Origin: Spiroplasma platyhelix PALS-1
GTDB lineage: Bacteria; Bacillota_I; Bacilli_A; Mycoplasmatales; VBWQ01
Reading direction: 5' to 3'
Length of the DNA stretch: 64,000 nt
Assembly (NCBI RefSeq): GCF_021496725.1
Contig: NZ_CP051215.1
Span: 310,001-374,000, forward strand
Within the stretch, counting starts at the first letter, position 1. The number at the start of each line of letters is the position of its first letter. Below the pieces are notes generated by a model that saw only the letters and a list, made by a program, of their open reading frames with translations, did not search any database and was not told where the DNA came from. This document shows positions 1,953 to 23,408 of the stretch, piece after piece. Position numbers and translations under genes: made by a program.

Positions 1953-2090
1953 ATGAAACGACTTTTGGTCTCGTTTTCTTTATTTAGATTAATAATTTTT
2001 TATGTTACATTTCTCTTCCACCAAGCGGGGGGGGGGGGAGAACATGACTGAAATTCAATTAAGATAACATTTGATTGAAAATGGAAATAG
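1953..2090 (+). CDS. Possible short ORF containing a 12-G tract
   Basis: An ATG behind a strong AAGGGGG site opens a 45-residue frame: a hydrophobic N-terminal half (LFRLIIFYVTFLF), then a Gly run encoded by the G tract, then an unrelated-looking tail ending at TAG. With 11 or 13 G the tail would be different and end sooner. I recognise no family. It may be translated, a gene remnant, or chance; the only real support is the ribosome site. Confidence 0.25.
2027..2038 (+). repeat. 12-base poly-G tract
   Basis: Twelve consecutive G in a very AT-rich background, inside or beside the short ORF at 1953. Long mononucleotide runs are prone to length change in replication and sequencing. Confidence 0.95.
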
Positions 2091-4093: not shown

Positions 4094-6057
4094 CTTGTAT
4101 TTCCTCCTGACGTATTGTTTTTAGCATTATTAGCAAAATGTTTTGCTAAGAAATTTAGTAGATAAATTAAAACAATGGTAATGAAGGCTGTTTCATACAT
4201 TAAATTAATTTTATTTGGTAGGGGTGAATCTTTGTTAAGAAAAATAATATGAGTAGTTAGAGTTTGCCCTGAGCTTAAAAATCCTTTGTCAGGGAATTGT
4301 AATGTTGAACCTAATGTTAAGTAAACAGGAGCAGATTCACCAATGATTCTTCCCATTGTTAGGATCATACTTGTGATGATTCCTAGTAAAGCATTAGGGA
4401 TAACTACTTTTGTTATCGTACCAATTTTATTAGCTCCTAAAGCTAAAGATGCTTCTCTTAATTCATCTGGTACTGCTTTTAAAGAATCTTCAACAGCTTT
4501 AATAATTACTGGTAGAACAACAAGTGTTAATGTTAGACCTGTACTAATTATTGTAAAGCCAAATCCCAGAAAATCAATAAATAAGATTAATCCAAACATT
4601 CCATAGATAATTGATGGCGTAGAAACTAGAGTATTTAAAAAGAAGCGAATAGAGTTAGCAAATTTATTTTTCTTGATACCACTATATTCATTTAAATAGA
4701 TGGCAATCATAATTCCAATTGGCATAGCAATTGTAATTGCAACAATAACCAATAAGAATGTTGTGAACAAGAGAGACATATAGCCACCTCGTCCAGTAAG
4801 TGGATTAACTTCAGTGGTAAAGAATTGAGCTAAATGAAAGTTTCAGATGCTTTCTCCTGCAGCAGGACGGAAATTAAAAATACCTTCTAAAATAATGTCG
4901 CCAATAATTCAGATAATTAGACCCATTGTTAGTGCTCAAGCAAGTGACATAAAGCCAATTCTAATGTAGTCTCAAGTTTGACTGACCTTGCGATTGTTCA
5001 GTGTTTTTTGATAGATTAGTTTTTTCATTTTTGTGTCATTTAAATTCAATGTTTTTAAGTCAGGAGTTTTTTCCTTGCCAATTCTTTTTGCACGATAATC
5101 ATGAGTTTTATAAATTATTAAAACGATAACATTAATAATTGTCACAATTATGAATAAGAAAATTCCAACAGCATATAAAGCAGAACTATGAAGAGTACTT
5201 GTTGTTTCATTAATCTCAATTCCAATAATTCCTGCTAGCGTTGTGATTGAAGAAAAGAAAAATGCTAAGGGACCATTCATGGTGTCAGGAGAAAAGACGC
5301 TACCTCCAGCAATCATGATCACTGCCATTGTTTCACCAATTACTCGGCCAAAACCAAAGATAACAGCTCCAATAATTTTTGTTAGAGCAGATTTAAAAAC
5401 AATTCTAAAAGTAGTATTCGCTTGACTAATTCCTAAAGCTAGAGAAGCGTAACGGTGTGATTTAGCAACTCCGTTAATTGCGTTGACAGATAGAGAAATA
5501 ATTGTTGGCAAGGCCATTAAAGCTAAGATGAAACTAGCTGTCATCATATTTTCTTTGGTTGGTGCTCCCATTTTGACAAAAATTGGACCAATCACCATTA
5601 ATCCAAAAGCACCAAAAACAACTGAAGGAATTCCAGATAGTAATTCAATTAATGTTAGACTAGTTTTTTTAATTTTTTTTGGTAGAAATTCACAAATAAA
5701 TAATGAAGAAAGTATTCCTAAAGGGACAGCTAGAATCATTGAGAACAAGCAAACCCAAAAAGTTCCTGTGATGAATGGTAGAACACCAAATGATGGAGGA
5801 TCATCTGAAGGAGCTCACTTATTTCCTACTAAAAGATTTCAGAATCCATATCTTTGGAAGGCTGTAACTGATTGAGCAATCACAAAACCAATTAAAGAAG
5901 CAAAAAGCAATAAAGTAAGCAATAAAAAAAATCAAATGACAATTTTTGCAATTAAGTCATGTAAATTTTTTGTTTCTTCGCTAATAAAAGTATCTTGATT
6001 TCTACGATTAAAAAGATTGATTTTTTGCCAAAAGGCTTTTTTTGTTTTTATTTCCAC
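3997..6057 (-). CDS. pstCA: Fused phosphate ABC transporter permease PstC-PstA
   Basis: Both permease subunits of the phosphate importer are one polypeptide. Residues about 1-360 form the PstC half (EAA-type loop [11 protein letters not shown]) and residues from about 362 the PstA half ([14 protein letters not shown]), joined through a UGA-Trp codon at 4972-4974 with no stop or restart. The start is GTG 6055-6057 behind AAGGAG, 10 bases after pstS. At 4090-4092 the frame meets UGA overlapping the pstB ATG; read as Trp it adds a 31-residue Lys/Gln-rich tail ending at TAA 3997-3999 (686 residues). If UGA terminated there, the protein would have 655. Fused permeases are known in other Mollicutes. 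Confidence 0.9.
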
Positions 6058-14247: not shown

Positions 14248-15712
14248 TTATCAACAACTTTCAATTATGCAATTGCATGAATTATTAGTTAATAAAACAC
14301 TTAGTGCTGAAGAATTATTAAACTTAGTGCTATCAAGATTAAAAAAATTTGCAGATCTTAATGCTGTGGCAACTGTTTTAGAAAAAGAAGCTACTGAATG
14401 AGTTCAAAGTTTAAAAGCAATGGAAATTGAAAAAGATAATCCTTTATATGGAATTCCATTTGTAATGAAAGACAACATTATTACGATTGGTCAAAAAACA
14501 ACAGCATCATCAAATATCTTAGCTAATTTTGTGCCGCACTATGATAGTACAATTAATAGTTTATTAAAAAATGTTAAGGCAGTTAATATTGCTAAGACAG
14601 CATTAGATGAATTAGGTATGGGTGGAGATGGTCTTTATGCTAACACAGGGTATGTTTACAATCCATGAAACAAAGCACATATCATTGGAGGTAGTTCAAG
14701 TGGTTCAACGGCCTTAGTGGCTGCTGGTGTTGTTCCTTTTGCTTTAGGGACAGATACAGGAGATTCAATTCGTAAGCCAGCTGGTTTTAATGGTATTGTT
14801 GGATTTAAGCCAACGTATGGTTTAATTTCTCGTAATGGTGTGATTCCTTATGCACCTAGTTTAGATACTGTTGGAATATTTGCTAATTATGTACAAGATA
14901 TTGCTAATGTTTTGGATGTACTAGTAAAAGAAGATAAGAATGATTTTACTAATACAAAAAGTTTAGAGTCAGATTATTTTAAGAACTTAAAAGAAGATGT
15001 TAGTAATTTAAAAATTGCAGTCTTGAATTATCAATCTTATCAATGAAAAGATGAAGTTAAATCTGCCTTTGATCAAGCAATGAAATATTTAGTTAATGGT
15101 AAGGCAAAAGTTGAATATATTGATTTTAATCAAGAATTGTTAAGTGCTTTACTACCAGTTTATATGATTATTTCTTTTGCTGAAGCAACAAGTTGTCATG
15201 CAGGTTATGATGGTGTTAATTTTGGTGTACAAAAAAAAGGAAGCAACTATCAAGAAACAATGATTAAAAGTCGAACAGCAGGGTTTGGTCAAGTAGTTAA
15301 GAGAAGATATGTTATTGGAGCGTATGCGCTATCTGAATTGCATCAAAAAGAATTATTTTTAAAAGCTAAAAGAGTAAGAAGAATAATTGTTGAACAAATT
15401 AATCAATTATTAGCTAACTATGATGCTTTTATTGTTATGCCTTCAGTTAGTCCAGCGCCAACAATAAAAGATGTTCTTGAAAAAAATAATACTTTGAAAG
15501 CAGAACATCAGTATATGGAAGACTTATTGGTGCTAGCAAATTTGAATGGTTCTCCTTCAATTACTATTCCTCTAACAATAGTTGATGAACTACCAATCGG
15601 ACTTAACATTAACACTGCACCATTTAAAGATCAAACTGCACTTAATATTGCTAATTATTTAAGCAAACAAATTAACTTTAAAAATAAACTACTAGGTGAA
15701 GATGATGAATAA
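14234..15712 (+). CDS. gatA: Asp/Glu-tRNA amidotransferase subunit A (amidase)
   Basis: GatA releases ammonia from glutamine and passes it to GatB. The 492-residue protein has the amidase signature: catalytic Lys in FVMKDNI, the Gly/Ser-rich GGSSSGSTALVAAG, and the nucleophile Ser in TDTGDSIRKPAGF, completing the Ser-cisSer-Lys triad. UGA-Trp codons split it under the standard code, but the frame is continuous from ATG 14234 to TAA 15712. Its start overlaps gatC and its end overlaps gatB by 8 bases. Confidence 0.96.
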
Positions 15713-17147
15713 TTATGATGTAACAATTGGTGTTGAAGTTCATATTGAATTAAAATCAAAAACAAAAGCTTTTTCATCTGCTGCAAATAGTTTTGCTGCA
15801 AAACCTAATAGCCAAGTTAGTCCTGTTGATGCAGGTTATCCAGGAGCAATGCCAAGTTTAAATCAAGAAGTAGTAGTTAGTGGGATTAAATTAGCACATA
15901 CTTTGAATATGAAAATTGATCCGCTTTTACGTTTTGATCGTAAGAATTATTTCTATCCTGACTTACCTAAGGGCTACCAAATTACTCAATTTTATCATCC
16001 AATTGGTAGCAATGGTAACTTACAAGTTACTGTTGCAGATAAACCATTTTTAATTGAATTTGAAAGAGTTCATATTGAAGAAGATACAGCAAAACAAATT
16101 CATCAAGGTGATTTAACTTACTTAGATTACAATCGTGCTGGTGTGCCTTTATTAGAATTAGTAACAAAACCAATTTTTAATAATGCAGCACAAGTTCATG
16201 CTTATATTGTTGCTTTAAGAAGAATCTTAATTGCGTTAGATATCAGTGATGCAAAAATGAACGAAGGTTCATTACGTTGTGATTTAAATATTTCTTTAAA
16301 GCCACAAGCAAGTGAAACTTTAGGAACAAAAGTTGAAATTAAAAATCTTAATTCGCTGAATAATATAACTTTAGCGATTAATGATGAAATTATTCGTCAA
16401 AGTGAACTATTGTTAGCAAACAAACAAATTGAAGAAGAAACTAGAAGATTTGATGAAAAAAGTAATCAAACAGTTTTAATGCGAAAGAAAACAAGTGCTG
16501 TTGATTATAAATATTTTACTGAACCAAATATTTTTCCAGTCCAGTTAGAACAAAAATGAATTGATGATGTCATTAGTAAACTGCCGATGCTACCTAATGA
16601 GATTGCAGATATTTTAAAGAATAAATTTAGTTTAAATGATAGTGAGATTAATGTTCTTTTAGATCGTAGAGATTTATTGTTAGCATTTGAGGTTATAGTG
16701 AAAGAAAATAACTTATCTAAAGAAACAGTTAACTATCTTTTAGGACCAGTGCTAGGTTATCTTAATACGCAGCAGATAAATGATCTTAGTGTAACAAAAC
16801 TTAACTATCAGCATCTAGCAGAATTAATCACAATGATTAAAGAACAAAAAGTAAATGACAAACAAAGTCAAAAGATTCTAACAACAATTTTTGAGTCGGA
16901 TGAACACAATCCAAATGAGTTACTGAAGTTATGAGATGTTAGAGTTATCACTGATGAAAAAGAACTATCAGAAATCATCATCAAATTAATTCAAGACAAC
17001 CCACAAATGGTAGAAGAGTACTTTAAAAATCCTTTTAAAGCGAATAAATTCTTTATCGGTCAAGTGATGAAGCAAACGAAAGGTCAAGCTAACCCTAAAA
17101 TTGCTCAAGAGTTAGTTGATAAATTGATTGTTGAATATAAAAAATAA
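15705..17147 (+). CDS. gatB: Asp/Glu-tRNA amidotransferase subunit B
   Basis: GatB binds the misacylated tRNA, phosphorylates the acyl group with ATP and completes amidation with ammonia from GatA. The 480-residue protein opens with TIGVEVHIELK and contains FDRKNYFYPDLPKGYQI and EGSLRCDLN, all characteristic. The preferred start is ATG 15705, six bases after AGGTG; the GTG at 15696 lies inside that ribosome site, and ATG 15702 is also possible. The C-terminal YqeY-like tail is present. It is the last gene of gatCAB, followed by a terminator. Confidence 0.96.
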
Positions 17148-17172
17148 AAGCTCCAATAAATTTGGAGCTTTT
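17146..17172. terminator. Bidirectional terminator between gatB and the repeat lipoprotein
   Basis: An 11-bp perfect stem AAAAGCTCCAA/TTGGAGCTTTT with a 5-base loop lies between convergent genes, with T-rich sequence on both exits. Confidence 0.85.
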
Positions 17173-17190
17173 ATTTTAATAAAATTATTA

Positions 17191-19329
17191 TTATTGCTTA
17201 TTTAATTCATAAAACATTTTAAAGTCTTTAAGTTGAATTACATGAGTAGAATTATCTCAAAATACTACAGTATAGGTTCCACTATGTAGTACAGTTTCTT
17301 GATCTTTATCTCAAACATTTTTTGAATTACTTACGATTTTATCAAGGTCTTTATAATCCATTTCAATATCTTGATTTATTAATTCTTGTCTTTGATGAGC
17401 AAGTACTCAAAAGATGAATCTTCATACATTTTCGTCGGTTGTTCCATCTAGATCTGCGATTAATAAACCATTTCCATAAATTTCTATAAATTGTTTTTCT
17501 TTATAATCAAAGAAAGCAATTCATGCATCTTTTTTTGCTGCTGATTTTGTTTCAGCATTTTTTAGATTCTCAATTATGTTATTGTAAGCAGGATCTATTT
17601 TGCTAATTACAATTGCAACTTCACCTTCAATTGTCTTATTTGGTTTAGTAATTATAGTTGCTGAACCAAAGTTTTCTTTGGTTGCTGCTTTGAAATCTTT
17701 AATACTAATATTTGCGCTGTTTAATTCGGAATGTTGTTTTTGAACTTCATTAAGAACAGATTGTTCGGTATTATTAGTATTACTATCAATTACTCTATTT
17801 ATAATGATACGATTTAAACCTTTTTTTGTTGCTGTCAATTTTGTGATTGTAATTGAAACTTCACCAGTAAAATTGCTTTCTGGGATGGCAGTAATTTTAG
17901 CTGATCCAGACTGACTTATTGTTGCTGCTTTGAATTCTTTGATTTCAACATCTTCAATTGTTACATCATTATTTAAAAAAATAATTTGATTAAGAACTCA
18001 TGTTTCATCGTTATACAAATCACCTTCAACTTCTTTATTTTTGATTACTGTGTCTAGGTTGATTTTGTCTGCTGCTTTGATTGTGATGTTTACTTCGCCT
18101 GTGAATGTACTTTCTTTTTTGGCAGCAATTTTAGCTGATCCTTTTGTACCAGGTTGAGCTGCTACAAAAGAGTTAACTTCAAGGTCTGTTTTATTTACTT
18201 TAGAATCTGGATTTAGTGCTAAAACTTTGTCGATGATTGTTGTTTCAGTAGCATCACTAGCAACTTCAGTAATTTTAATTACAGAACTTAATTGAGTTTT
18301 GTTGAGAGATTTAATAGAAATGTTTACTTCGCCAGTAAACTTAGTATTTTCTTTTGCAAAAACAGTTGCTGATCCGTTTGCTATTTGTGTAGCTGCTTTG
18401 AAGTTTTTGATTTGGATGTTACCTTTTACTTCTGGATTAGCTGTTTCGATTGTTTGAAGTACTTTAGTTTCATTATTAGAAGTGTTTCCATCAACTTCTT
18501 TATTTTTGATTACTGTGTCTAGGTTGATTTTGTCTGCTGCTTTGATTGTGATGTTTACTTCGCCTGTGAATGTACTTTCTTTTTTGGCAGCAATTTTAGC
18601 TGATCCTTTTGTACCAGGTTGAGCTGCTACAAAAGAGTTAACTTCAAGGTCTGTTTTATTTACTTTAGAATCTGGATTTAGTGCTAAAACTTTGTTGATG
18701 ATTGTTGTTTCAGTAGCATCACTAGCAACTTCAGTAATTTTAATTACAGAACTTAATTGAGTTTTGTTGAGAGATTTAATAGAAATGTTTACTTCGCCAG
18801 TAAACTTAGTATTTTCTTTTGCAAAAACAGTTGCTGATCCGTTTGCTATTTGTGTAGCTGCTTTGAAGTTTTTGATTTGGATGTTACCTTTTACTTCTGG
18901 ATTAGCTGTTTCGATTGTTTGAAGTACTTTAGTTTCATTATTAGAAGTGTTTCCATCAACTTCTTTATTTTTGATTACTGTGTCTAGGTTGATTTTGTCT
19001 GCTGCTTTGATTGTGATGTTTACTTCGCCTGTGAATGTACTTTCTTTTTTGGCAGCAATTTTAGCTGATCCTTTTGTACCAGGTTGAGCTGCTACAAAAG
19101 AGTTAACTTCAAGGTCTGTTTTATTTACTTTAGAATCTGGATTTAGTGCTAAAACTTTGTCGATGATTGTTGTTTCAGTAGCATCACTAGCAACTTCAGT
19201 AATTTTAATCACTGTGTCTAGACTGATTTTAGCTGTTGGTGCATCTGAACCACAAGATACAACACTTAACGAAGTTGGAACTGCAATAGCTAATAAACCA
19301 ATTGATGCTAACATTTTTTTAAAATTCAT
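17191..19329 (-). CDS. Surface lipoprotein with tandem repeat domains
   Basis: A 712-residue exported lipoprotein. The signal peptide ends at a lipobox (LSVVSCGSD, Cys about residue 26). The body is seven domains of about 77 residues, each ending in a pattern like GSA...FTGEVNITIK. The first five alternate two types (A-B-A-B-A) and are nearly identical between copies at DNA level; the last two are diverged. A unique C-terminal part of about 110 residues, with several UGA-Trp codons, closes it. ATG 19329 is preferred; a TTG at 19335, closer to AAGGAG, would add two residues. A 13-G tract lies about 134 bases upstream. Function is unknown; copy number of the repeats could vary. Confidence 0.85.
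18026..19209 (-). repeat. 465-bp tandem repeat, about 2.5 copies
   Basis: The same sequence recurs at a fixed 465-base spacing (155 codons); for instance TTGATTACTGTGTCTAGG begins at 18041, 18506 and 18971. The copies are almost identical; one visible difference changes Asp to Asn in the IIDKV segment. The array lies wholly inside the lipoprotein gene and keeps the frame. Confidence 0.95.
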
Positions 19330-19462
19330 TTTCAATTTCTCTCCTTTTTATTTCTATTTCTATTATATTTAAAATTATAATTAATAAATTATAGCATATT
19401 CCTCCTTTTATTAAAAAAACTTTATTAATTTTACTTTTTCAAAATTATTTTATCATTTTCTC

Positions 19463-19475
19463 GGGGGGGGGGGGG
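19463..19475 (+). repeat. 13-base poly-G tract
   Basis: Thirteen G in the spacer between the divergent repeat lipoprotein and ruvX. It is poly-C with respect to the lipoprotein gene and lies 57 bases upstream of the ruvX -10 box. Confidence 0.95.
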
Positions 19476-19531
19476 CAAGAATTATTTAAATTTTTAATTA
19501 TTTTAATAATTACTACTTAAACAAATTAAGG

Positions 19532-19537
19532 TATAAT
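19532..19537 (+). promoter_or_regulatory. -10 box directly upstream of ruvX
   Basis: A perfect TATAAT ends 6 bases before the ruvX ATG, so transcription would begin at or beside the start codon. No good -35 box is visible. Confidence 0.6.
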
Positions 19538-19543
19538 AAAAAT

Positions 19544-19996
19544 ATGAAATATTTAGCAATTGATTTAGGAAGTAAGACTTTAGGATTAGCTCGCGGAACA
19601 GGGCTAATTGCTTCACCATGAAAAACTTTAAGATTTAAAGAAAATGATTTTGATCAGGCTTTGCAGGGACTTTTGTTAGCAATTAAAGAATATCAGCCCG
19701 ATGAAATTATTTTAGGCTATCCACTAAATATGAATGGTTCAATTGGAGAAAGTGCTGAGACTGTTTTACAATTTAAAAAAATGTTAGAAGAAAAAATTGA
19801 TAGTGAAATTGCTATTGTTCTTTTAGATGAAAGAAGAACAACTTTTAGTGCGAATCAAGTTTTAATTGCAGCTGATTTGAGTAGAAAAGCGAGAAAAGAA
19901 AAAAAAGATCAGGTTGCAGCAACAATTATCTTGCAAACTTATTTTGACAAGATAAATTTTCAAAAGCAAAGAAAGGAAGAAGATAATGACAAATAA
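19544..19996 (+). CDS. ruvX: Holliday junction resolvase-like protein RuvX/YqgF
   Basis: A 150-residue RNase H-fold nuclease, the family implicated in Holliday junction resolution and rRNA processing. AIDLGSKTLGLA, LGYPLNMNGS, DERRTTFSA and the C-terminal KDQVAATIILQTY are the family motifs with the acidic metal ligands. One UGA-Trp lies at residue 26. There is no clear ribosome site, and a -10 box lies six bases upstream of the ATG, so the mRNA may be leaderless. It overlaps udk by 11 bases. Confidence 0.92.
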
Positions 19997-21325: not shown

Positions 21326-23363
21326 TTATTTTACAACAACTAGTTTATCATTTGAAATTACATATTCGCTGTATTTTTTATTATTACTTACTCAAGTATT
21401 TTTTTCAGAATTAAAAATTCTGGCTTTGTTTGATAAGTGAGTATTAACTTCAATTATAAAACCTTCTTCATATGGAATTTCTCATAACTTATTAGCATTA
21501 AGAACATTATTAAAATTATCTCCAGCTTTTAAAGTAATATTTTTAACAATTTCACGGTTTTGATTTTTAATAGTTATATCATAATATTCTGTTTCTTTAT
21601 TTTGGCTTGCATCAATCAATGTACCAGTACCTCTAAATAAAATTGTTTTTGTTGCTTGATTTAATCCAATTAATCCACGTTGATAATAAGCGTACCCAAT
21701 AAAACTGATTGTATCTTCAAAAGAAACTGGTATGAAGTAGATATAAGAATTAGATAATAAATTATCATCTTTTACAATAATGTTTGTTTGGATATAATAT
21801 TGATTTTCTTTAATATAATAGTTCATTCAATTTAATTGTATTTTATCGGCTAGGATATTATTATTTTCTGAAATATCCAAAAATTCATTTATGTTAGTAT
21901 CATCAATTTTTGTTCCAAAATTAACTGCTTTTTTTGATGTAATTTCATATTTAAGTGTTGATAATTGATATTCTGGTAATTCTAACTCAACAACAGGTTC
22001 TTTAGTGCCATTAATTATGTTTTCTCAAATATTTTTTTCTAGTGAAGGCAATTGTTCAATTGTTTTTTTAGTGTCATCATTTATTTTAATCCCTCATTTT
22101 TGATAAAAAGGTGTTAGATTTCGATTTGTTATTTTTGATGTTATCTTAATAAAATCTTGTTGCATATTGCTGATTGATAAATTAGTTCGATAAAACTGTG
22201 ATAACGTTGGATAGAAGTTATCTCCAAAAGCCATTTGTAATTGTCAAAACATTGTTAATTTTACAAATCCGTCTTTTTCGTTATTGAAATCTTTATTTGG
22301 ATCATTTGAATTTAAAAATGCTTTTACTTTTGCGATATTACTTGCACTTTCTAAGTTATTTGTTTTAGCAATAAATTTTTGTACATATAAAGCGCTTATA
22401 TTAACTGTAACTTCTGTTAAATTAGATCATTTATATTGTGGAGTTTGATAAGTATGACCGATCTCATGTCATAATCCTCATTGATTATCAGGTTTTCTAA
22501 CAAATAAATTTTTACCTGCACCACTTTTATTTTGAAAAGTAATTCGATAACTAGTTGCAGAAGCATAACCAACACCATTATCAGGATTAGTAATATGAAT
22601 AAATTGGTTATACTTTTTTTGCTACTCCTGAATATTTTTCATTTAGTCCATATAGTTCACTTGAATACTTTCAAATTTGATCTCAAGATTCAACAGTATT
22701 ACTTATATTTACATCTTTTGCATTTATCACATCTTTTTTAAACATTTCAGTTTGAAATGTTCCAAAAACATGATTACCAACAACTTCAACAAAAGGTGAA
22801 TTTGTTTCTAGTATTTGATTAAAAAAATCTGTTTGATTAGATTCATCAATAATAAATGTTGGAACTTTTATTGGCTCATTTTTACTAATACTTACGATTG
22901 ATACACTATTAGTAAATCGGTAATCTTTTAAGTATAGCATTCCAGAAATTTTTGGAGTAACAGTTAAATTTTCTCCAACAATTTGATAACTTTCGAATCC
23001 AACATTTTTGCCATCATTTAAATTTTTGTAGTCGCCATATTGACCAATAGCAAGATATAATAAATCATTACTATCTGCATTTTTATTAATTTGAATCTGA
23101 TATTCTTTATCTTTTTCTAAAAAATAACCAGTTGGTCTAAGAAATGAATGTTGAAGACTTCGATTTTCACTTGCTAAAATATTCTTTTCAATGCTGGCAT
23201 AATCATTAAATTGATTTGTAATATCTTGATTTAGTTGATTGACTTTTACATTTTCAGGATTATCAATTTCACTAGGTACTTCTTTGTTACCACAAGCTAC
23301 AACACTTAATGATGTAGGAACACTAAGAGTAACTAATCCAATTGTTGCTAATAATTTTTTCAT
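21326..23363 (-). pseudogene. M60-like zinc metallopeptidase lipoprotein, frameshifted
   Basis: Two frames together describe one lipoprotein of about 678 residues. The first begins MKKLLATIG with lipobox SVVACGN, reads through a UGA-Trp (22683-22685) and hits TAA near 22605, just after a run of seven T on the plus strand (22614-22620, A7 in the message). Losing one A restores a long frame that continues SATSYRITF and contains WGLWHEIGHTYQ (HEIGH at 22454-22468), the zinc motif of M60/enhancin-type peptidases, and runs to TAA 21326-21328. M60 enzymes cleave mucin-type glycoproteins. The break may be a sequencing error, a real inactivation, phase variation, or transcriptional slippage on A7. 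Confidence 0.75.
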
Positions 23364-23408
23364 AAATAAATCCCCCTTTTTTTGAGACAAAAATTGCTTA
23401 TACTTATA

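Follow-up and report, generated by a model that had tools for sequence, protein, structure and literature searches.

The features found around the lipoprotein gene of Spiroplasma platyhelix PALS-1 are reported in Table 1, where positions refer to the window, i.e., the whole stretch of 64,000 nucleotides that was analysed. The gene encodes a predicted surface lipoprotein of 712 amino acids and lies between what we take to be, from their sequence families, a gatB-type and a ruvX/yqgF-type gene. A second possible start of the same table 4 frame is the TTG at 19335. In its own genome, the gene at 17191-19329 is the only full-length match to the lipoprotein, and a first scan of the whole 712-aa protein against named genomes gave no match. 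The signal, judged by eye, is of the lipoprotein type and ends in VVSC; the NCBIfam signal models match the protein only below their cut-offs, and a pair of further lipoproteins from this genome that begin in a similar way reach 23.9 and 22.7, where LP_plasma has its cut-off at 24. Three terminator-like sites were found in the region 17100-19700, compared with a mean of 0.9 in shuffled sequences. The window, whose GC content is 27.2%, sits in a single contig of 744,499 bases; the genome of this cultured bacterium is described as having 739,863 bp and 26.7% GC (PMC7679083).

Table 1. Features of the lipoprotein locus and its flanks, with positions in the window, strand and basis of each assignment.
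Feature	Position	Strand	Basis
gatB-type gene, left flank	15705..17147	+	open frame
Hairpin, possible terminator, between gatB and the lipoprotein gene	17141..17177	.	terminator scan
Surface lipoprotein gene, 712 aa	17191..19329	-	open frame in table 4 from ATG 19329
Unique C-terminal part, 132 aa	17194..17589	-	inferred farthest from membrane
Domain D, diverged	17590..17820	-	domain profile
Domain C, diverged	17830..18060	-	domain profile
Tandem array, period 465 bp, 2.55 copies, one substitution overall	18026..19209	-	repeat finder and copy count
Domain A3	18064..18294	-	domain profile
Domain B2, DNA identical to B1	18298..18525	-	domain profile
Domain A2, bearing the sole substitution	18529..18759	-	domain profile
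Domain B1	18763..18990	-	domain profile
Domain A1	18994..19224	-	domain profile
Predicted lipoprotein signal peptide MNFKKMLASIGLLAIAVPTSLSVVSC, lipid-bearing Cys26	19252..19329	-	sequence
TGATAAAAT, extended -10-like site, 7 bases past the C run	19447..19455	-	sequence; putative promoter element
13-base C run (G on the + strand), candidate slippage tract	19463..19475	-	sequence and genome count
TTCTTG, -35-like, abutting the C run upstream; 23 bases to TAAAAT (hand count)	19476..19481	-	weak consensus match, inference
ruvX/yqgF-type gene, divergent right flank	19544..19996	+	open frame

The 465-bp repeat of this gene is real. Tandem Repeats Finder reported it at 18026-19209 with period 465, 2.5 copies, 99% matches and a score of 2361, the next best of the 11 rows in the window scoring 82, and the length and identity of the array rule out chance. 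By direct count the copies measure 465, 465 and 254 bp; copies 1 and 3 are identical over their shared part, and copy 2 is one base off, which changes D to N. The first-pass annotation had described about 2.5 near-identical copies of a 155-codon unit made of two alternating domains in a Mollicute lipoprotein, and both the array and its division into A and B domains (41% identical to each other) agree with that description, as do the lipoprotein nature of the product, judged from its sequence, and the assignment of the bacterium to the Mollicutes. The recent in-frame homogeneity (one substitution in 2.55 copies) and the possibility of 155-codon steps without a frameshift were also supported. 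The idea that the gene is built from repeats holds for the array and not for the whole gene, since the near-identical part covers 1184 of 2139 bp (55%). Similarly, the outer domains were said to have diverged: this is true of C, D and the unique 132-aa C-terminus, all on the C-terminal side, but the membrane-proximal copy, from codon 41 on, shows the same degree of identity as the inner copies. The genome encodes a RecA (E 1.3e-118) that could recombine the copies, in keeping with the recombination that had been suggested, and their number may be changing at present. RecA was matched in eight of the nine family genomes, three of these matches being fragmented or interrupted by stops.

After the signal, the domains follow one another in the order A-B-A-B-A, each of about 77 residues, and then come C, D and the unique C-terminus; at the protein level, C and D share 31-51% identity with one another and with the other domains. 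The domain is present in 21 of the 298 genomes of the order (E<=1e-6). The A2-B2 pair, modelled together with 15 natural sequences (pairs picked from 35), gave a pLDDT of 96.7 and a pTM of 0.73, and each domain is predicted to consist of a short helical turn, a helix and three strands. The best Foldseek match of this two-domain model was the tandem Rib of group B Streptococcus (6s5y; E 3.2e-4, probability 1.00, TM 0.43). The VIA-align Z scores were 5.0 for InlK, 4.1-4.7 for the Siglec-plus-Unique constructs (SrpA, Hsa, SK678) and 3.8-4.2 for the Rib entries, values of 3.8-5.0 also being common among unrelated folds. Atypical Rib domains, including that of 5eq2 (SrpA), comprise a helix and a three-stranded sheet (PMC6936399), a layout similar, by the order of its elements, to that of the window domains.

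Rib and aRib were absent among the 16 Pfam families listed at E<=1 for 22 domain sequences (picked from 54 found), a comparison whose filters drop weak matches, and the search of solved structures with the domain profile gave no match below E 0.68. Spiralin (PF05215) was a weak match in 10 of the 22 domain sequences (best E 5.4e-5); its gathering score was not reached (A1, 12.9 bits vs. a cut-off of 25), and the family did not come up at E<=1 when the whole protein was compared. The likeness extends to length (81 positions in the family, 77 here) and to the fact that both are Spiroplasma surface lipoproteins. A search through the open frames of 17 sources yielded no relative for the C-terminal part, whose single-sequence model was poor (pLDDT 46.6); a resemblance, noticed by eye, to the C-terminus of the lipoprotein on the ftsZ side was dropped, there being no BLASTP or phmmer match.

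The interval between gatB and ruvX contains one gene in the window and is about 16 kb long in two congeners, Spiroplasma sp. JKS002669 (G001) and G002; the former is one of the S. attinicola strains, was isolated from a fungus-growing ant and has been cultured (PMC12239587). Six large minus-strand frames occupy it in S. attinicola and five in G002 (an extra 145-aa plus-strand frame of G002 was taken as spurious), and by eye four of the six and three of the five begin like membrane-anchored proteins. On the basis of these frames the locus, which the first-pass annotation had not considered in this light, is read as a surface-protein island, and from the sequences it appears to be one in the two congeners, with a single gene here. 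The window-type domain occurs in two genes of the S. attinicola interval (in four copies and one copy) and in none of G002, and the S. attinicola interval contains no G/C run of 7 bases or more. In the S. platyhelix genome, a lipoprotein paralogue of 482 aa (L022 6280-7728) repeats itself exactly over 246 bp with a period of 231; in G004, which belongs to the genus of S. ixodetis SHM, the L075 gene does so over 146 bp with a period of 234. Expansion of this type appears, on sequence grounds, to be present elsewhere in the family, with single-domain steps there and a two-domain step here. The ftsZ-side lipoprotein of S. platyhelix has three domains, and its likely congener counterpart, recognised by eye from the flanks, has four. 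Elsewhere in the window, at 21326-23390, Peptidase_M60 weakly matches a lipoprotein frame (23.7 bits vs. a cut-off of 25.8); additional frames in different phases come after it, as expected of a broken M60-type gene.

The C run, which the first-pass annotation did not record, lies 133 bases upstream of the lipoprotein start codon and 68 bases upstream of the ruvX start. It is one of two G/C runs of at least 8 bases in the 744,499-base genome, and all those of the window besides the two long ones reach at most 5 bases; Markov models of orders 1-3, fitted to the window minus its two long runs, predict 5e-7 to 6e-5 runs of at least 13 bases per genome. The position of C13 upstream of the gene suggests on/off switching as a second layer of variation. 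The putative promoter around it is unusual, in that the 23 bases between TTCTTG and TAAAAT are longer than the usual spacing. A promoter scan of the region gave seven sites compared with 11.4 in shuffles, i.e., fewer than by chance, and the sole site on the gene strand in the intergenic stretch (19456-19428, ATGATA-17-TAAAAT) starts after the C run and excludes it. Other TATAAT-like sites are closer to the lipoprotein gene than the run, which is absent from the 260 bases upstream of all eight other lipoprotein-type genes examined in the genome. The second long run (12 G, window 2027-2038) falls within a 45-codon frame starting at 1953 with a Shine-Dalgarno-like sequence, and no surface gene follows it; the frame is flanked by genes which are presumably degV-like and phoU-like, and PHROGs gave no match at E<=0.01 for 1953-2063.

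In S. attinicola there are six G/C runs of at least 9 bases, two upstream of surface genes, three in CRISPR spacers and one in a methyltransferase gene. Of the two surface genes behind C runs, one encodes a lipoprotein of 266 aa and the other a membrane-anchored protein of 683 aa that contains three window-type domains. All three surface genes, including that of the window, share the same setting, in which CTTG or TTTG precedes the C run and TGATAnAAT follows it after 1-7 bases (1 and 3 bases in the two S. attinicola cases). At the window-wide rate this motif would occur by chance with P ~0.0007 per tract, a value that refers to a motif picked after the sites had been seen and to intergenic DNA richer in such sites than the window. 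A common -35/-10 spacer was sought and rejected: the distances from CTTG/TTTG are 23, 15 and 15 bases by hand count, and one gene would have a spacer of 17 if TTGTCT were taken as its -35. Since no value is shared by the three genes, no on/off state was assigned. In S. attinicola the run is absent upstream of six of eight lipoprotein-type genes. At the level of the family, G/C runs of at least 9 bases are present in three of nine genomes and absent from G002 and from five of the six genomes other than these congeners and S. platyhelix.

The pattern of TTG, at least seven C and TAnAAT was matched nine times in 8 of the 298 genomes of the order (the reversed pattern, three times); the S. platyhelix genome is not among them, its gap being longer than the pattern allows. 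Five matches fall inside open frames of 144-907 aa, and four precede surface-type genes, i.e., the two of S. attinicola and two in genomes of another family; a 165-aa frame downstream of the match in L097 was ignored as antisense to a longer frame. The two matches in the other family are C9 and C10 runs at position 1501 of L092 and L093 (G162, G231), followed by TGTTATAAT and a lipoprotein-type gene, a layout like that of the putative window promoter with a differing run length; an antisense frame of 132-133 aa runs through the same regions. In a further genome, G008, two C9 runs (L073 2119-2127, L074 2105-2113) fall in related small membrane-type frames of 95 and 93 aa, which adjoin a repeated gene of 634-642 aa. 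Pfam and PHROGs (E<=0.01) gave no match for the frames scanned around them, and the idea that the neighbours of these runs are plectrovirus-like was abandoned as unsupported.

The methyltransferase gene of S. attinicola, of the N6/N4 type, carries G13 (4101-4113 of G001:C1:613500-621000) and overlaps a frame with a helicase-like start (by eye), on the basis of which it is read as type III-like; judging from G13, it is a candidate for phase-variable methylation. Type III genes have been reported in this species (PMC12239587). The CRISPR array of JKS002669 (G001:C1:402000-413500) has 79 spacers, 74 of which are 30 nt long, with two of 29, one of 31 and two of 35 nt; G12 and G13 occur precisely in the 35-nt pair (Fisher p 0.0003, the test having been chosen after the data were seen), and in the sequence these G runs look expanded, as if they had grown, which lends slippage indirect support. 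Five spacers (4151, 5739, 6993, 7191, 7521) are alike by eye and have a G run of 6-13, as if directed against one foreign sequence. A search for exact 17-base stretches of the G-run spacers found no foreign match, and with up to two mismatches in the 298 genomes only three places were found, all in the array itself; matches of a loose pattern in six viral contigs were rejected as chance (33-59% GC, other flanks).

The interpretation that we somewhat favour is that the gene encodes a Vlp-like, membrane-anchored lipoprotein with two contingency layers, i.e., promoter slippage switching its expression on and off and recombination of the repeat changing its length. The near-identical A-B units beside the lipid anchor might undergo in-register recombination or slippage, with a gain or loss of 155 residues, and such a change would move the distal part out or in, as in a stalk of variable length; the position of the repeats, membrane-proximal beside the N-terminal lipid with the unique part distal, suits a stalk with 155-residue steps. 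Expression might change through slipped-strand mispairing in the 13-base C run between the -35-like and extended -10-like sites, altering promoter strength. From one assembly of the species, which lies behind all the claims on variation, we infer the promoter function, the variation of either element, the surface position and the geometry of the stalk. In favour of this reading are the near-identity of the array beside the diverged C and D, the similar repeats in the paralogue and in G004, the RecA gene and the failure to find MutS_V in the nine family genomes, as well as the rarity of the run in the genome and its recurrence in the same setting before two surface genes of the congener. The poor promoter scan, the differing spacings, the lack of the run before most lipoprotein-type genes and the lack of runs of at least 9 bases in most family genomes argue against the switch, and the C run could be inert.

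It is possible, though less likely, that the repeat alone matters, the lipoprotein being length-variable and constitutive and the C run a neutral product of slippage in cells without mismatch repair. MutS_V was found in none of the nine family genomes (compared with 11 of 14 in the control), the second G run sits in a 45-codon frame with no surface gene, the G runs in the congener CRISPR spacers look expanded with no promoter role, and a promoter-like site excluding the C run exists. Neutral runs should, however, be common, yet the genome has two, and three of the eight runs of at least 9 bases in two species directly precede surface genes with an extended -10-like site. The run might instead belong to the promoter of the divergent ruvX, as its 68-base distance from that start would allow; this is highly improbable, since the regions upstream of ruvX in the two congeners lack such a run and have TATAAT directly before the start, as here, and since two congener runs precede surface genes.

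The array might also be a snapshot of ordinary domain gain, produced by recent duplications or gene conversion and now fixed, rather than part of an ongoing contingency system. Slow gain and loss would suffice for related lipoproteins that differ in domain number (three vs. four), and a single assembly is at hand; this explanation is nevertheless rather doubtful, as a single simple duplication would not yield 2.55 near-identical copies, which call for further events of that kind or for homogenisation time and again, similar runs exist in a paralogue and in a relative, and RecA is present. It is very unlikely that repeat number or tract length is a product of the assembly, such as a repeat that was collapsed or wrongly joined. 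An array of 1184 bp is beyond the span of short reads, but copy 2 has its own substitution, the edges of the array lie inside unique diverged sequence, the 712-codon frame is intact, and a collapse hides copies rather than creating them.

If a lipoprotein with both layers is accepted, its advantage has to be considered in the light of the host. Surface variation for immune escape fits the mycoplasmas of vertebrates, and insects have no antibodies; since they lack them, the selecting force may be phage and contact with host tissue rather than adaptive immunity. Candidate benefits in an insect-associated Spiroplasma might include the reach of adhesion, exposure to phage and the innate immunity of the host. 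It may be proposed, quite tentatively, that this clade of insect Spiroplasma uses G/C runs for contingency, with poly-C promoter switches before stepwise, stalk-type surface proteins and a phase-variable type III methyltransferase. Should both layers be kept in an insect-associated wall-less bacterium, this would open the way to asking what purpose surface variation serves without antibody, and the tracts of S. attinicola, which has been cultured (PMC12239587), can be measured directly. Switching and size-variable lipoproteins are well known in the mycoplasmas of vertebrates (PMC10502178); among the titles and abstract openings surveyed in an open-access library, none was described in Spiroplasma.

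Several known systems resemble the window gene in part. Periscope and Rib-domain proteins of streptococci consist of tandem folded domains of more than 50 residues with near-identical DNA (PMC8201768, PMC9704523, PMC6936399), and recombination has been proposed to change the reach of the distal head of Periscope Proteins (PMC8201768, PMC9704523). The 155-codon unit of the window is likewise a tandem repeat of more than 50 residues with high DNA identity, made of predicted folded domains, and the tandem Rib 6s5y was the best Foldseek match; unlike those proteins, the lipoprotein has an N-terminal lipid anchor in a wall-less cell, a two-domain unit and no Rib sequence match seen. The words Mycoplasma, Mollicutes and lipoprotein do not occur in the text of PMC9704523, nor do Mycoplasma and lipoprotein in that of PMC8201768. 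Among Mollicutes, Vsa (M. pulmonis), Vmm (M. mycoides), MBA (Ureaplasma) and vlhA (M. gallisepticum) are surface lipoproteins variable in size or phase, whose switching depends on rearrangement of DNA, on a dinucleotide tract, on inversion or on GAA repeats (PMC10502178, PMC3047005, PMC6258824). Moreover, a poly(G) run in a methyltransferase gene of M. agalactiae varies in culture (PMC9465063). Expression of the Vlp lipoproteins of Mycoplasma hyorhinis is switched by a homopolymeric A tract in their promoters, and their size changes through coding repeats that keep the frame (PMC10502178). Vlp has an A tract, a gene family and known switching, whereas the window has a C tract (C13), one gene in the interval, another genus and a record from one assembly, and its repeat units are longer folded domains than those of Vlp. 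Since the tract is C13 and not A, the lipoprotein may at most work in the manner of Vlp and is not classed with it; what the two have in common is a Mollicute lipoprotein, a predicted one in the window, with a homopolymer in the promoter, a candidate one in the window, and tandem repeats in the coding region that are in frame and, in the window, near-identical.
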